Positions 29,148 through 33,243 of a stretch of 33,940 nucleotides of DNA are shown here, one piece after another. The notes beneath the pieces are model-generated. The model was not told the origin of the DNA and ran no database searches. It worked only from the letters and a program-made list of their open reading frames with translations. Numbering within the stretch: position 1 is the first letter of the stretch; each line of letters opens with the position of its first letter. The translations under genes and the position numbers were made by a program. The DNA is taken from positions 1 to 33,940 of IMG/VR virus record IMGVR_UViG_3300022690_002177, one strand, 5' to 3'. This stretch comes from a virus.

Positions 29148-29391
29148 TTTCGTTGTCCAGTCTCTTTTTTGTTTTGCAAAGTTGGTTGACCATTTTATTA
29201 TATGCATAATTGAGTTTCTCTCTTGAATCGTACTCGTCAAGCACATTCTCTACAGCGGCACATAGTCTAGTTAGGGAGTCTGCAAAGGGCTCGCTTAGAT
29301 CGTGGTAGACGCCATCCAGCGGTTGTTTCTTGGTTGTTTTGGGTTGGTTATCCAACCGGTACCCCAACCGAGCTATTTCCTCATTTGTCAA
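29107..29391 (-). CDS. Hypothetical coiled-coil protein, 94 aa (TTG start)
   Basis: Starts at TTG 29391 with a perfect AAAGGAG seven bases upstream; no ATG in frame is close. The product is helical with two long charged helices and YAYNKMVNQLCKTKKRL near the C-terminus. It overlaps the esterase start by 41 bases and the ABA-sandwich stop by 11. No family recognised. Confidence 0.65.
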   Translation of the reverse strand: MTNEEIARLGYRLDNQPKTTKKQPLDGVYHDLSEPFADSLTRLCAAVENVLDEYDSREKLNYAYNKMVNQLCKTKKRLDNENEKLRPSIITKSN

Positions 29392-29827
29392 TATCTACTC
29401 CTTTCATTTTCAACGCAGCCAACGCCACCGCTTTGGGGGCTAATGGGTGAGAACTGGTAAAATCAAATTGACCTCCGCCAGTCTTTTCGTAGCTGAAATG
29501 AGCAGTCCATAAAGAAAAATGCTCTAACTTGAAGGCCCCTATTATCTCGTGGTCCTTTTTTGTCATCTTCTCAATCACCTCCCCCATCGCTTCCCATGAG
29601 TTGCAGTAGTCTGGACAGGAAAAATGTGGGGATTTAATCCAGGGGAGTTCTAGTCGCTCTTCCCAACTAGGTACTCTTTCTTTGTACCGCTGGATAACTT
29701 TTTTAGCCTCTTCCAGAGAACAACCGTCGTCGTAACCTTTAAAACCAGACATTCCTATCCTAGGCTCATAGACATCTAACCCCATCACCTTTTCGTGGAC
29801 TAATCGATTTATCTTTTCATCTGTCAT
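29381..29827 (-). CDS. Phage ABA-sandwich domain protein, 148 aa
   Basis: N-terminus MTDEKINRLVHEKVMGLDVY and C-terminus PLAPKAVALAALKMKGVD match the Phage_ABA_S pattern (helix, beta, Ala/Leu-rich C-terminal helix), with SCPDYCNSWEAMGEVIEKM in the centre. The family is common in phages and its function is unknown to me. GAGGACAAG precedes ATG 29827. First gene of the late block, after a structured leader with a tRNA-like element. Confidence 0.72.
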   Translation of the reverse strand: MTDEKINRLVHEKVMGLDVYEPRIGMSGFKGYDDGCSLEEAKKVIQRYKERVPSWEERLELPWIKSPHFSCPDYCNSWEAMGEVIEKMTKKDHEIIGAFKLEHFSLWTAHFSYEKTGGGQFDFTSSHPLAPKAVALAALKMKGVDIDK

Positions 29828-29846
29828 CTTGTCCTCTTTATAAATC

Positions 29847-29944
29847 TGCTAGGCCAGACTCGACACTGGCTACGGGCTGCGCTACCTTTCGGCATTCCGA
29901 CCCTACATGCGCTCTTGGTAATGAGTCCTTCCCCACCGCTAGCA
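29847..29944 (-). ncRNA. tRNA-like structured RNA element, copy 1 (98 nt)
   Basis: Read on the minus strand: an acceptor-like stem TGCTAG (29944-29939) with CTAGCA (29852-29847); three bases, then a D-like arm TGGG-GAAGGA-CTCA; a middle region with GCGC-GCGC and TCGG-AATG-CCGA hairpins; then GCCAG-TGTCGAGT-CTGGC (29870-29853), directly joined to the acceptor 3' strand as a T-arm. A G-T pair in the D-like stem is a mismatch on the other strand, so the RNA is read on the minus strand. The T-arm and the D-loop GAAGGA are identical in copy 2 (33109-33243), while stems differ. No standard anticodon arm; the T-loop has eight bases. Confidence 0.55.
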
Positions 29945-29965
29945 TTAAGTTCAATTTAATAGCAA

Positions 29966-30038
29966 GGAGGAAGCCGAGACAAGATGTAAAATAGGTAAAC
30001 CTTACAAAGAAGAATCTTCAAGATGATAGGCTTCCCCC
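29966..30038 (-). promoter_or_regulatory. Long hairpin in the late leader
   Basis: GGGGGAAGCC (30038-30029 on the minus strand) pairs with GGCTTCCTCC (29975-29966), nine of ten bases, enclosing GTAA-ACC-TTAC (near 29994-30004) and GAAGA-type small hairpins. A second CTAGCAT copy at 30039-30045 repeats the acceptor half of the tRNA-like element, so two mutually exclusive folds are possible. It lies between the promoter-like sequence at 30063 and the tRNA-like element. Confidence 0.4.
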
Positions 30039-30062
30039 TAGCATAATTTCATTGTAGCATCC

Positions 30063-30091
30063 ATTATATATTAAAGGAGATGTTTATGAAA
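30063..30091 (-). promoter_or_regulatory. Possible leftward promoter of the late block
   Basis: On the minus strand TATAAT (30068-30063) is a perfect -10, with TTTCAT (30091-30086) 17 bases upstream as a poor -35. The -35 coincides with the ATG of the plus-strand gene at 30086. An activator or a phage factor would be needed. Downstream leader is about 225 bases and highly structured. Confidence 0.35.
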
Positions 30092-30304
30092 GGGCACCCA
30101 CAGCCATATAGAAGGTCGGAAGAAAGAGATACGAGGATATTAATTGGAGTATTATGTTTGGTCATTGGGTGGGTGGCATGTGATTTCCTGACTTCTTCCA
30201 ACCTTGCAGATGTCATGGCAAAGAGAGTGGGAGCCTATAGCTGTACTCTAGATCTTAAGAGATGCTTTACTGCTGTGGAGGTTGATCCTCCAGACTTTCA
30301 ATAA
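30086..30304 (+). CDS. Small membrane protein on the opposite strand, 72 aa
   Basis: ATG 30086 has AAAGGAG six bases upstream (30074-30080); an in-frame ATG at 30080 lies inside that site and is less likely. One hydrophobic span (ILIGVLCLVIGWVACDFL) follows a basic N-terminus, with Cys residues after it. It is a lone plus-strand gene within a minus-strand region, and its 3' end overlaps the RusA gene 3' end by 38 bases. Function unknown. No convincing plus promoter is seen. Confidence 0.5.
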   Translation: MKGHPQPYRRSEERDTRILIGVLCLVIGWVACDFLTSSNLADVMAKRVGAYSCTLDLKRCFTAVEVDPPDFQ

Positions 30305-30683
30305 CTATTTCTATCCTAACTTCATTGCGCTTACACTTGCGCCACTTGGATACTAATTCCACGATGACCTTGGGATTGTCATCCTCAATCACACCATAAC
30401 TTACTAGCGCATCAATTACTGGCTTCCATGACGCCATTAGATTGTCTTCGTCTGGTTGCCGACTCGAATATCTAACCAGAGTCAGCTTTGCTTTAGTCAG
30501 CGGATCATCCCAATACCTGAAATCATTAAGCGCATGGTTTACCATACGCTCCCATCTCTTTCTTTCTCCATGTCTAGAGAGCCATGTACGGCCAAACCTA
30601 TTTGGGAGCTTAGGAGGTTTGCCCAGGATAATCACCCGCAGAGCGTCCCCAGAACAGTCTTTAAGAGCTTTTAACGGTGTCAT
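30267..30683 (-). CDS. RusA-like Holliday junction resolvase
   Basis: The 138-residue protein (ATG 30683 preferred over TTG 30704) has the RusA acidic motif: RQPDEDNLMASWKPVIDAL with Asp78, Asp80 and Asp91, then GVIEDDNP with Asp101-Asp102. RusA dimers cut four-way junctions symmetrically and process replication or recombination intermediates before packaging. Its size is typical. It overlaps the small gene upstream by 23 bases and the plus-strand gene at its 3' end. Confidence 0.87.
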   Translation of the reverse strand: MTPLKALKDCSGDALRVIILGKPPKLPNRFGRTWLSRHGERKRWERMVNHALNDFRYWDDPLTKAKLTLVRYSSRQPDEDNLMASWKPVIDALVSYGVIEDDNPKVIVELVSKWRKCKRNEVRIEIVIESLEDQPPQQ

Positions 30684-30846
30684 CTCTGTCTTCCTGATAT
30701 TCAATCGCCTTTGTTAAAGAATCCCGTAATCTTATTAACTCATCCCTATTGAGCAACGTTTTGGCACAGAAACTACTAGGTATATTGGGGTCGCGGTCAA
30801 CCATTAAGGAGACATCTTCTGTTATATTCATGAACCAGTCTGGCAT
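30661..30846 (-). CDS. Hypothetical protein, 61 aa
   Basis: ATG 30846 has AGGAG eight bases upstream; a GTG at 30855 lies too close to that site. The product is acidic (ITEDVSLMVDRDPN) with a helical C-terminus. It follows the preceding stop in the pattern TAATATG and overlaps the RusA start. No family recognised. Confidence 0.6.
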   Translation of the reverse strand: MPDWFMNITEDVSLMVDRDPNIPSSFCAKTLLNRDELIRLRDSLTKAIEYQEDRDDTVKSS

Positions 30847-30847
30847 A

Positions 30848-31153
30848 TTACTCACTCCTGTAATTATATAACTTTTTCACATTAGCTAACATGACCTTTT
30901 TGTCGCGGTCAATCAGAGCATTATGAAGCCGCTTGAAATATTTACTTACTGGTGGTTCCGGGCCGTGAAAATAAGCTTCTAATTGTTTGACTTTATATAC
31001 TGTACCGCAGCAATTTAGCGTGTAGTCAGTGCTTGGTCTGCGCGTGTCATAATACTTATCAAGGAGTCGCAATACTGCCTCTAAATCAATAAAGATCCTG
31101 TGGCCCAGTCTGACAGAATCTATCCAATGGAGCGGCTGGTCATCGTCACTCAT
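30848..31153 (-). CDS. Hypothetical protein, 101 aa
   Basis: ATG 31153 overlaps the preceding stop by 8 bases (ATGAGTGA); the frame is open to 31165. Polar protein with LGHRIFIDLEAVLRLLDKYY and NALIDRDKKVMLANVKKL helices and two adjacent Cys (NCCG). No domain recognised. It is part of a tight early-type operon with its neighbours. Confidence 0.6.
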   Translation of the reverse strand: MSDDDQPLHWIDSVRLGHRIFIDLEAVLRLLDKYYDTRRPSTDYTLNCCGTVYKVKQLEAYFHGPEPPVSKYFKRLHNALIDRDKKVMLANVKKLYNYRSE

Positions 31154-31445
31154 CCTCACGGCCATAGAATTTGTTTAGGGCTGAGGTGGCGGTAAAACCC
31201 TCATCTTTCAGTAATTTTGGCATCCAACCACTTTTACCCAAAGTAGTCTTACCACTTAGATGGCTGGTGTAAAACTTCAAAGCATCAACAAATGCATTTA
31301 CCTCTTCGGATTCTAGGGTAGCGATGTAGCCATTGATATAATCAAGCATGGCGGCCTTACCCTCGTTTCTTAAAGGGTTGTGTCTAGCCTCTAAATAAGA
31401 GAAAGCTCGTTCTTCCATCTTAGCTATTTGCTCTGGTGTCATCAT
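31146..31445 (-). CDS. Hypothetical protein, 99 aa
   Basis: The frame is open to a GTG at 31502, but ATG 31445 has AAGGA five to six bases upstream and is preferred. Helical protein (MTPEQIAKMEERAFSYLEAR) ending with acidic GREDE. It is the first gene after the repeat-rich operator region, so it may head the early operon. No family recognised. Confidence 0.6.
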   Translation of the reverse strand: MMTPEQIAKMEERAFSYLEARHNPLRNEGKAAMLDYINGYIATLESEEVNAFVDALKFYTSHLSGKTTLGKSGWMPKLLKDEGFTATSALNKFYGREDE

Positions 31446-31570
31446 CCCAATCCTTTTATGTGTTTCAGCATTATTAACACACAGAGCCTGAAGTTGGAAC
31501 ACTTAGGACTATCAATGACACGGTTAATTAAGTAGTAATTAATTTTGTCATGTAAGCCTAAAATAACCCT

Positions 31571-31602
31571 AATTACTGGTGTCATTATGATACCAGGTAA
31601 TT
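31571..31602. promoter_or_regulatory. Long palindrome, possible operator
   Basis: AATTACTGGTGTCAT (31571-31585) is repeated inverted as ATGATACCAGGTAATT (31587-31602) with one mismatch and one extra base. No T-run follows on either strand, so a protein-binding site is more likely than a terminator. Confidence 0.5.
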
Positions 31603-31673
31603 ATTACAAAAAAAATAGGCTCTAAGTATTTAATTATTTATTATTTGGATATGTATCCGAAATTGATCCGTAT

Positions 31674-31808
31674 TGACAAAATACTTTTGTCATCCTTGCA
31701 CCGTGACGTGACAAAAATTGTCACCATAGACACGGAGTGACGTGACAAAAATTGTCACCGGTAGTTTTCAAATTGACGCATGTGATGGTGACAAAATTGC
31801 TTGCGTCA
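31674..31808. repeat. Array of TGACAA-N3-TTGTCA palindromes at 33-34 bp spacing
   Basis: Three palindromes: TGACAAAATACTTTTGTCA (31674-31692), GTGACAAAAATTGTCAC (31708-31724) and the same sequence at 31742-31758; the last two are each preceded by GTGAC, making a 23-base direct repeat. Centres are 33 and 34 bases apart. A weaker copy (GTGACAA...GTCA) begins at 31788. This is typical of multiple operators or replication iterons. The binding protein is unknown. Confidence 0.7.
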
Positions 31809-31834
31809 TTTCTCTGATGTTTTGGAACACTTTC

Positions 31835-31951
31835 TTAGGTTAGGTGTGGCTTTAGATCTAATCCCAGTTTCCTGAGCTCACCCAGTGCTTCCGCCGTCCC
31901 CGCCCTCTTGGCGCATCGTAAACGCGCCGCACTAGCACGTCTCTTACCCAT
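31835..31951 (-). CDS. Small basic protein, 38 aa (alternative frame)
   Basis: ATG 31951 to TAA 31835 encodes a basic Ala/Arg/Leu protein with a plausible helix (GTAEALGELRKLGLDLKPHL). No good ribosome binding site. It overlaps another frame (31858-31968) that has better start signals, so only one is probably used. Base composition here is more GC-rich than nearby. Confidence 0.3.
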   Translation of the reverse strand: MGKRRASAARLRCAKRAGTAEALGELRKLGLDLKPHLT

Positions 31952-31968
31952 CTCAGCAAAATACTCAT
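31858..31968 (-). CDS. Small basic protein, 36 aa (coupled frame)
   Basis: ATG 31968 overlaps the previous stop in the pattern ATGA and follows GAGGAG by six bases, so initiation is likely. The product is rich in Arg, Trp and Val (MSILLRWVRDVLVRRVYDAP at its start). Composition is less protein-like than the overlapping 38-residue frame. Low confidence. Confidence 0.3.
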   Translation of the reverse strand: MSILLRWVRDVLVRRVYDAPRGRGRRKHWVSSGNWD

Positions 31969-32216
31969 CGACTCTCCTCGTATATTTTCTTCAACTCCTC
32001 ATAGAATGGTCTAAACATGTTCGCTGAAATTTGCGCTACAGTGAAAGTTGCACCGCGGCCTTGCATTAAAAATAGAAAAGTATGTTTATCGTCAACACTT
32101 CCGTCTGGTTTGACATAAACCCTAATTGGTCTAAACTCTTCGCGCACCTCAAATTTACTCAAATCAATGGGCCGACCTTTAGGGGTATGATGCACTGAAA
32201 ATGTATTTATTCTCAA
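31965..32216 (-). CDS. Hypothetical protein, 83 aa, behind RNA element A (TTG start)
   Basis: TTG 32216 follows AAAGGAGGAT with a six-base gap; no ATG is in frame. Beta/helix mix with IRVYVKPDGSVDDKHTFLF and a C-terminal helix (FYEELKKIYEESR). Its ribosome binding site lies within RNA element A, so translation is probably controlled by that fold. No family recognised. Confidence 0.6.
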   Translation of the reverse strand: MRINTFSVHHTPKGRPIDLSKFEVREEFRPIRVYVKPDGSVDDKHTFLFLMQGRGATFTVAQISANMFRPFYEELKKIYEESR

Positions 32217-32224
32217 CTTAATCC

Positions 32225-32314
32225 TCCTTTGAACGAACGACTGGCCCTATCGGTACCAATAGGACATAAGCAAAGGCCTTTTGCAGTACAACCCAGTCGT
32301 CCGATCAAAAAGGA
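32225..32314 (-). ncRNA. SD-sequestering RNA element A (90 nt)
   Basis: On the minus strand the 5' flank TCCTTT (32314-32309) pairs with AAAGGA (32230-32225), which is the Shine-Dalgarno region of the next gene. Inside is ACGACTGG (32300-32293) with CCAGTCGT (32244-32237), and two hairpins: GCAAA...TTTGC (32284-32270) and CCTATTG-GTAC-CGATAGG (32263-32246). A T-G pair in the last hairpin is a mismatch on the plus strand. The outer helix is broken by a two-base bulge and one T-T mismatch. Related to element B at 32452-32544. Confidence 0.65.
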
Positions 32315-32443
32315 CTACCTATTCATGCAATTTTTACATAATAAGCAGGCTTGTCCGTCTTCATAAAGCCTTCCATTTCTTGTCCTGCATCCGTCGCAGC
32401 GGGTGTTAAGTAACCATAGAATAAATCGTTTAATTGGGTGCAT
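32315..32443 (-). CDS. CxxC micro-protein, 42 aa, between RNA elements A and B
   Basis: ATG 32443 with AAGGGAGGATTGTC upstream, stop TAG at 32315. Five Cys in the pattern CxxC (CDGC) then CxxCxxC (CLLCKNC), so it is probably zinc-binding. An in-frame hydrophobic N-terminus (MHPIKRFILWLLN) may interact with membrane. Its ribosome binding site is part of element B. Function unknown. Confidence 0.65.
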   Translation of the reverse strand: MHPIKRFILWLLNTRCDGCRTRNGRLYEDGQACLLCKNCMNR

Positions 32444-32451
32444 GACAATCC

Positions 32452-32544
32452 TCCCTTGAACGAACGACTGGTATAGTTCAAACCAACTTTAGGCATCCTC
32501 TCAAACGCGCGGGGTAGCCACTCCAATCGTCCGATCAAAAGGGA
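32452..32544 (-). ncRNA. SD-sequestering RNA element B (93 nt)
   Basis: On the minus strand TCCCTT (32544-32539) pairs with AAGGGA (32457-32452), the Shine-Dalgarno region of the 42-residue gene. Inner helix ACGATTGG (32530-32523) with CCAGTCGT (32471-32464) contains one T-G pair. Compared with element A, the outer pair changes from T-A to C-G at one position while pairing is kept, and the flanking GATCGG and TCGTTC sequences are conserved. The loop interior differs from A and its hairpins are less clear. Confidence 0.65.
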
Positions 32545-32545
32545 C

Positions 32546-32629
32546 TTACCATTTAGAACCCAAACCACAGGCAATAAGGATTATCACAAGTGCGGCTATT
32601 ACTAGAATTATAGCCTGTGCGTGTGTCAT
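32546..32629 (-). CDS. Membrane micro-peptide, 27 aa
   Basis: ATG 32629 overlaps the previous stop (ATGA), with GAGGTC two bases before it. The peptide is mainly hydrophobic (IILVIAALVIILIACGLG) and ends GSKW; IIAC-like Cys could be a lipid-attachment site but the N-terminus is not basic. Ends just before RNA element B. Function unknown. Confidence 0.45.
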   Translation of the reverse strand: MTHAQAIILVIAALVIILIACGLGSKW

Positions 32630-32955
32630 AAGACCTCTGTTAAAATTCTAAAATCTTTAAAAACATTATTCTCAATAGTAACTTCTACAGGCTTACCTAT
32701 TAATGCGTGGACTGACTCAACTTTCGCCTCTTCTAAAATACTTTTGACCTTTAATACCATTTTAAAAACAGCTTCTTTATGTTCCGCATCATTAGACCAC
32801 TTGGCCTCTGTGTTCATATTTACCATGTCTCTTCCACCACTACCAATACCCCAACTATCCGCACTAAAGCTCAAATCGAGCCCCATTAAAAAAGGATAGT
32901 CAGAGATTACCCCAAAGTAAGCTCTACTAATTTTAGCTAACTTTTTTTCAAGCAT
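32626..32955 (-). CDS. Hypothetical phage protein, 109 aa
   Basis: Starts directly after TAA (TAAATG) with GGGGAGG upstream. A centre with IGSGGRDMVNMNTEAKWSND and a C-terminus with ALIGKPVEVTIENNVFKDF recalls small phage proteins of unknown function. It precedes the micro-peptide gene and is in the early-type cluster. I cannot assign a function. Confidence 0.6.
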   Translation of the reverse strand: MLEKKLAKISRAYFGVISDYPFLMGLDLSFSADSWGIGSGGRDMVNMNTEAKWSNDAEHKEAVFKMVLKVKSILEEAKVESVHALIGKPVEVTIENNVFKDFRILTEVL

Positions 32956-33090
32956 TTAATCCTCCCCATTTTTTATTCCAAATATCTTCAAAAACAGCTG
33001 TGTCTCAGTCAACTCAGGATTGTCAAAGCGCACATAAGTACAGTAGAAGACAAAAGCAAAACTGAATATGAAAACAATAATCCTAAGCAT
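32956..33090 (-). CDS. Small membrane protein, 44 aa
   Basis: ATG 33090 with GAGGGG six bases upstream. One N-terminal span (MLRIIVFIFSFAFVFYCTYV) and a polar C-terminal half (LTETQLFLKIFGIKNGED). It follows the second tRNA-like element at its 5' side and is immediately followed by the 109-residue gene. Not recognised. Confidence 0.5.
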   Translation of the reverse strand: MLRIIVFIFSFAFVFYCTYVRFDNPELTETQLFLKIFGIKNGED

Positions 33091-33108
33091 AATCGCCCCT
33101 CTATAAAA

Positions 33109-33243
33109 TGCACTCTTGCCAGACTCGACACTGGCTTAGCGGTTCCCACGAACATACCCGCAAGGGGAAAATGAAGGGACTACGGAATGTATTCCAGTAG
33201 ACCGTGTTCGTATCCTGTGTGTCCTTCCACACCGAAGAGTGCA
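33109..33243 (-). ncRNA. tRNA-like structured RNA element, copy 2 (135 nt)
   Basis: Minus-strand fold: acceptor-like TGCACTCTT (33243-33235) with AAGAGTGCA (33117-33109), two bases, D-like arm GTGTG-GAAGGA-CACAC, a large middle closed by ACGAACA (33211-33205) with TGTTCGT (33154-33148) and holding hairpins at 33179-33199 and 33157-33166, then GCCAG-TGTCGAGT-CTGGC directly joined to the acceptor. The D-loop and T-arm equal copy 1; acceptor and D stems differ but still pair. It fills the space between the primase-like gene and the 44-residue gene. Confidence 0.55.

Follow-up and report, generated by a model that had tools for sequence, protein, structure and literature searches.

The viral DNA analysed here (IMG/VR record IMGVR_UViG_3300022690_002177, 33,940 nucleotides (nt), hereafter the window) carries two copies of a structured element on its minus strand. 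We conclude that this element is probably a small non-coding RNA of tailed phages, a natural transfer RNA (tRNA) scaffold that mimics tRNA and is excised by host tRNA-processing enzymes. The two ends of this RNA pair into a closing stem, on which the T-arm stacks without a gap, and a linker of 2 nt leads from the stem to the D-arm. The D-loop carries an invariant GG and the T-loop UC, both at the positions known from the tRNA elbow. The anticodon arm and the variable loop give way to an unrelated insert, which measures 43-174 nt. The copies lie in intergenic gaps, disproportionately beside or inside phage tRNA arrays and always on the tRNA strand.

The original prediction, made from the letters of the window, had described two tRNA-like elements sharing an identical 18-base T-arm-like hairpin. 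This 18-mer, GCCAGTGTCGAGTCTGGC, occurs exactly twice in the window, both times on the minus strand (29853-29870 and 33118-33135), against a chance expectation in shuffles of 0.01 at up to 3 mismatches. The D-like GAAGGA loops (29926-29931 and 33222-33227, minus strand) and the acceptor-like and D-like stems are likewise present where they had been described; the linker measures 2 nt, and in both copies the T-arm abuts the closing stem without a gap. Folding energy by itself says little about these elements (z = 0.06 and -2.06 for copies 1 and 2, respectively), and the proof is comparative. The parts of the two copies are as follows:

29846..29945, minus strand: element 1, the entire tRNA-like RNA of about 100 nt, closing stem TGCTAG/CTAGCA of 6 base pairs (bp)
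29939..29945, minus strand: element 1, closing (acceptor-like) stem, 5' strand ATGCTAG, 6 of 7 paired
29937..29938, minus strand: element 1, linker CG, corresponding to tRNA positions 8-9
29921..29936, minus strand: element 1, D-like arm GTGGG-GAAGGA-CTCAT
29871..29920, minus strand: element 1, variable insert of 50 nt
29853..29870, minus strand: element 1, T-like arm GCCAG-TGTCGAGT-CTGGC
29846..29852, minus strand: element 1, closing stem, 3' strand CTAGCAG
33109..33243, minus strand: element 2, the entire tRNA-like RNA of 135 nt, closing stem of 9 bp
33235..33241, minus strand: element 2, closing stem, 5' strand CACTCTT, inner 7 bp
33233..33234, minus strand: element 2, linker CG
33217..33232, minus strand: element 2, D-like arm GTGTG-GAAGGA-CACAC
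33136..33216, minus strand: element 2, variable insert of 81 nt
33118..33135, minus strand: element 2, T-like arm GCCAG-TGTCGAGT-CTGGC
33111..33117, minus strand: element 2, closing stem, 3' strand AAGAGTG, inner 7 bp

Searching IMG/VR for the exact T-arm returned 8 loci (numbered here with the prefix L). Four of them (L003, L004, L006 and L007) show the complete architecture with unrelated closing stems, and L002 shows it with a different D-stem; L001 and L008 lack the stems, look like coding coincidences and were discarded. Further copies were collected with patterns that leave the insert free, and a loose T-loop pattern gave at least 120 matches. The pattern matches L026, L029, L031, L035, L036, L037, L041 and L043 were discarded on the same grounds. 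In total, 230 copies in 226 loci fit the resulting descriptor, compared with none in the same 2.59 Mb of sequence reversed. The layout runs from a closing stem of at least 7 bp through a 2-nt linker C-R (227 of the 230 copies), a 5-bp D-arm with the loop GA(N)GGA and the insert to an invariant A and a 5-bp T-arm, whose 8-nt loop is WDUCRANN and which abuts the closing stem. The copies comprise 142 different closing stems, 31 D-stems and 24 T-stems, so that the T-arm identity noted originally holds between the two window copies and is not a property of the family. The commonest T-loop of the family is UAUCAAGC, followed by that of the window, UGUCGAGU.

Because the descriptor itself requires pairing and the core loop letters, the independent tests are those of register, of recovery from the T-arm and of covariation. 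The register was tested on 112 D-arm hits selected with a loose T-loop pattern only and with no pairing required. At the exact register (2-nt linker, stem abutting the T-arm) the closing stem was paired in at least 6 of 7 positions in 106 of these hits. A shift of 1-2 nt left no hit with such pairing, and a shift of 3-4 nt left 2-9. The second test took 127 exact T-arms as its starting point and accepted whatever hairpin followed whatever pairing partner. The D-arm was recovered from the T-arms alone; its loop was GAAGGA (55), GATGGA (28), GATTGGA (3), GACGGA (2) or another sequence, and many of its stems showed compensating changes. The presence of GATTGGA indicates that the length before the GG is variable, as in tRNA.

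Covariation was measured on 55 diverse cores, in which 98.6% of cells are paired. As the cores were drawn from accepted copies, this percentage arises partly by construction; the two-sided changes do not, and they occur at 16 of the 17 pairs (217 cells). None of 500 shuffles matches any of the covariation values, and slid registers pair at 30-39%. The second and fifth bases of the T-loop also change together (A-A 149, G-G 38). The alignment of homologues, which had been named as a check, therefore finds the long-range pairing conserved and does not refute the original prediction. The same data bear on whether the repeats are a protein-binding palindrome or a recombination or packaging site acting in DNA, not RNA. 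Conserved hairpin sequences and the proximity of some copies to integrase or terminase genes would suit such a site, which we nevertheless judge very improbable: the distant ends pair through arbitrary, covarying sequence across an unconserved insert, the tRNA-elbow letters are present on one strand only, and the neighbours vary.

Two variants of the architecture were seen alongside these copies. Several loci, including L070, L082, L097 and L111, form a subgroup whose shared closing stem (CATCATYGAAGCGG) reaches 14-17 bp and has ATGATGGTG after it, just 3' of the element; several members also have a GCGCA...TGCGC hairpin there. A shortened relative in Bordetella phage PHB04 (L179:3960-4030) retains the long closing stem, CATCATCGAAGCGG, together with a T-arm-like hairpin, but lacks a D-arm. 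Two copies per genome with differing inserts were observed in L004, L118 and the window, lying within about 220 nt of each other in L004 and L118.

The distribution of the family is largely viral. BLAST with the whole window or the whole element against known phages and plasmids gave no match, and relatives in known phages were recovered only with short scaffold queries. Annotated phages of Caulobacter, Komagataeibacter, Alcaligenes, Acidovorax, Iodobacter and Pseudanabaena carry the element in unannotated gaps. On the other hand, the element is almost absent from cellular genomes: one variant gave a single true match (L042) in 84,980 species, and the commonest variant gave none in 369 genomes of one class.

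We then compared the element with known RNAs. No family in Rfam 15 matches it, at the gathering score or at high E-values, and ARAGORN does not detect it; both searches had been named as checks in advance, and neither explains the element away. No description of the family was found in the openly accessible literature that we searched; this scope does not allow the claim that the wider literature lacks one. The elbow of tRNA and its acceptor/T stack are established structure (PMC4810234). The element resembles tRNA (RF00005) in its 7-bp stem (often longer) stacked on a 5-bp T-arm, its D-arm at 2 nt behind a linker with a purine in second place, the GG then A of its D-loop, the UCRA of its T-loop and its clustering on the same strand as tRNA genes. 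It differs from tRNA in that the anticodon arm with its 7-nt loop is replaced by the 43-174-nt insert, the T-loop has 8 nt and is not the 7-nt UUCRANY, position 8 is C and not U, CCA is rarely encoded, and both ARAGORN and the Rfam tRNA model are blind to it. Identity with tRNA was rejected on the missing anticodon arm and the 8-nt T-loop. All accepted copies have a loop of 8 nt, and one search that also allowed 7 and 9 nt gave no convincing copies; the T-arm-like hairpin of the original prediction stands, with this refinement of its likeness to tRNA. The proposal of a tRNA mimic whose anticodon part is swapped for variable structure is strongly supported.

The insert is never shorter than 43 nt or longer than 174 nt, although lengths from 25 nt were permitted in the search, and it is not conserved, with 188 sequence clusters among the 230 copies. 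Within some insert families a hairpin is kept, and in one of these C-G changes to T-A in the same stem. A canonical tRNA T-arm or a tRNA remnant is present in 9 of 200 inserts, where 0.035 canonical T-arms are expected in shuffles. ARAGORN, at partly relaxed stringency, also reported whole tRNA-like molecules nested in the inserts of L151 (Cys-like), L230 and L246, the last two with unusual anticodon loops. The T-arms and remnants, together with the occurrence in tRNA arrays, would be expected if the elements were functionless, decayed or pseudo-tRNA genes carrying insertions. There is little to recommend this explanation, which is contradicted by three helices under strong compensatory evolution and by invariant loop letters; nor would decay produce the same D-loop, linker and 8-nt T-loop across phages of distant hosts.

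The nearest analogues in setting are the phage T4 RNAs C and D (species 1 and 2), which also lie within a tRNA array. Both are stable products of the T4 tRNA cluster, measure 119-139 nt and have no known function (PMC9697503). In T4 rnaC a T-arm with the canonical 7-nt loop TTCGAAT is accompanied by a pairing partner; the D-arm, linker and 8-nt T-loop of our family were searched for in T4 rnaC and RNA D and found in neither. The tRNA-like end domain and the big insert replacing the anticodon arm are shared with transfer-messenger RNA (tmRNA, RF00023). The element differs from it in its overall length of about 100-230 nt and its stable 5-bp D-stem, and with no match to the tmRNA covariance model or in ARAGORN we rejected this identity. 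The tmRNA mimic of the original prediction is not supported.

Bacterial Y RNA, or YrlA, is a small RNA that mimics tRNA and is made with other modules (PMC7790460). In the phage contig of L024 a YrlA-like Y RNA (L279:575-709; 57.7 bits against a gathering score of 69) lies beside tRNA-Glu and the element; Ro60 was not found there. The tRNA mimicry of YrlA and this neighbouring RNA would suit a phage form of Y RNA that binds Ro60/Rsr. However, YrlA is permuted, with the T-arm before the D-arm and a capped acceptor, whereas the element has D before T and an open stem. YrlA is also tied to Ro60, and no Ro60/TROVE gene was found in 30 contigs, some of which are fragments. No element scores with the YrlA model RF02553, whose only match, a strong one in one phage (G015), is a separate neighbouring RNA. 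YrlA identity was rejected on these three grounds, and a Y RNA origin seems to us highly unlikely.

Viral RNAs that mimic the tRNA elbow are also known from plant-virus tRNA-like structures such as that of turnip yellow mosaic virus (PMC4810234). Those structures lie at the 3' ends of RNA genomes and have a pseudoknotted acceptor, whereas the element belongs to DNA phages and has a plain stem. In the engineered tRNA scaffold, a laboratory tool, foreign RNA is placed where the anticodon arm was, for stability. That scaffold is man-made, and the element would be its natural counterpart.

The genomic setting connects the element to tRNA. The density of tRNA genes is 0.445 per kilobase (kb) within 50 nt of the element and 0.014 per kb beyond 3.2 kb, a difference of about 30-fold. 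All 106 tRNAs within 3.2 kb are on the strand of the element, although all tRNAs seen fall in 40 of the 226 loci and the 106 are not independent events. In L003, L086, L120, L150, L207 and L237 the element belongs to a tRNA array, and some other loci have a tRNA no more than a few dozen nt away. Neighbouring tRNAs are frequently 3-26 nt from the element. In L003 the downstream tRNA starts 3 nt past the element, whose 3' end must therefore be released when the 5' end of this tRNA matures.

The neighbouring genes bear on the main rival, a cis-acting leader of the downstream gene that would work as a riboswitch or through translation or antitermination control, with a tRNA fold like that of yjdF. 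The yjdF riboswitch has a tRNA-like overall shape (PMC9142559). It controls the translation of its own gene in cis, whereas the element has no constant downstream gene. A leader would fit the window, where each copy is followed after 18-20 nt by the start codon of a minus-strand gene, and Iodobacter phage PhiPLPE, where the element precedes the first gene of an early operon; riboswitch P1 helices are, moreover, typically long, like the closing stems. Outside the tRNA arrays the element sits in intergenic gaps. Among the 90 copies with clear neighbours (called with a home-made gene finder) the downstream gene is sense in 58, and terminase-like genes, identified by eye from sequence, recur there and are the commonest neighbours. 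However, in 32 of the 90 the gene directly downstream is antisense, and there is no universal partner gene, the biggest neighbour cluster comprising 10 of 132 loci. With about a third of copies lacking a sense gene directly downstream, a 5'-leader riboswitch, which the original prediction had also offered, is not the general answer. The position in tRNA arrays and the insert, unconserved in a way that an aptamer core is not, argue further against a leader, and we consider this explanation unlikely.

Our preferred explanation remains a tRNA mimic excised by the host. The element would be co-transcribed with operons or tRNA arrays, and host RNase P and the 3' tRNA-processing enzymes would read the elbow and the 12-bp stack of closing stem and T-stem and excise the RNA, whose tRNA-like body would stabilise it. 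We infer excision and stability because of the geometry and the position of the element, which does present the 12-bp stack and elbow predicted of an RNase P substrate. Processing by RNase P and RNase Z, as first proposed, is plausible given the 7+5 bp geometry, the place in tRNA arrays and an occasional ACCA: copies with a stem of exactly 7 bp have a discriminator A in 24 of 34 cases and an encoded ACCA in 4 of 34. In the least certain step, the fast-changing insert may be the working part, delivered by the conserved scaffold; it could be a base-pairing segment, a protein-binding segment or a decoy, differing by phage and host. Taken as a whole, the original interpretation is partly supported.

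Several observations weigh against this explanation. The closing stem has at least 9 bp (up to 22) in 95 of 200 distinct copies and so exceeds a tRNA acceptor, and the T-loop has 8 nt rather than 7. Adjacent promoters and terminators are rare and their signs only weak (promoter-like sites 8 vs 4 or 1; terminators 9 vs 6). The inserts are not significantly more stable than flanking DNA (z -0.42 vs -0.32, p = 0.17), and their antisense match to their own locus is no greater than in shuffled sequence. For these last two reasons the insert is only a putative effector.

Downstream of element 1 the window has, on the strand of the element, the gene listed below and, at a distance of about 7.6-12 kb, terminase and portal genes (assigned by PHROGs); most of the intervening proteins are without a PHROGs assignment.

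29381..29827, minus strand: gene of 148 amino acids, its ATG 18 nt after element 1; PHROGs of unknown function match it, but only weakly

Three other features of the window were observed. Directly upstream of element 1 (29950-30045), the arms GGAGGAAGCC and GGCTTCCCCC, about 60 nt apart, may form an extra leader structure, as judged by eye. A second structured repeat pair on the minus strand (32220-32330 and 32447-32553) has pairable conserved termini, GATCGGACGACTGG and CCAGTCGTTCGTTC, and differing interiors; each repeat ends directly ahead of a ribosome-binding site of the AAAGGAGG type, and the pattern is absent from all other fetched loci. The non-coding gap at 31703-31759 holds two perfect 23-bp direct repeats, GTGACGTGACAAAAATTGTCACC, each with a near-palindrome, which resemble operators or iterons.

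These findings describe an abundant viral RNA family that annotation tools (ARAGORN, Rfam) have overlooked and that lies in unannotated gaps of published phages. They touch the old question of why phages since T4 keep stable non-tRNA RNAs in their tRNA clusters. The constant tRNA frame with its ever-changing insert suggests a trans-acting role in phage-host conflict, for which cultured carriers such as Caulobacter phage DMCA and Iodobacter phage PhiPLPE are available for testing. More tentatively, tailed phages may use the conserved scaffold as a general vehicle for small RNAs that evolve fast, which host tRNA enzymes would excise and protect while the interchangeable insert acts in trans on a target or defence specific to the phage or the host. 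The same frame may also provide a natural template with which RNAs could be expressed stably.

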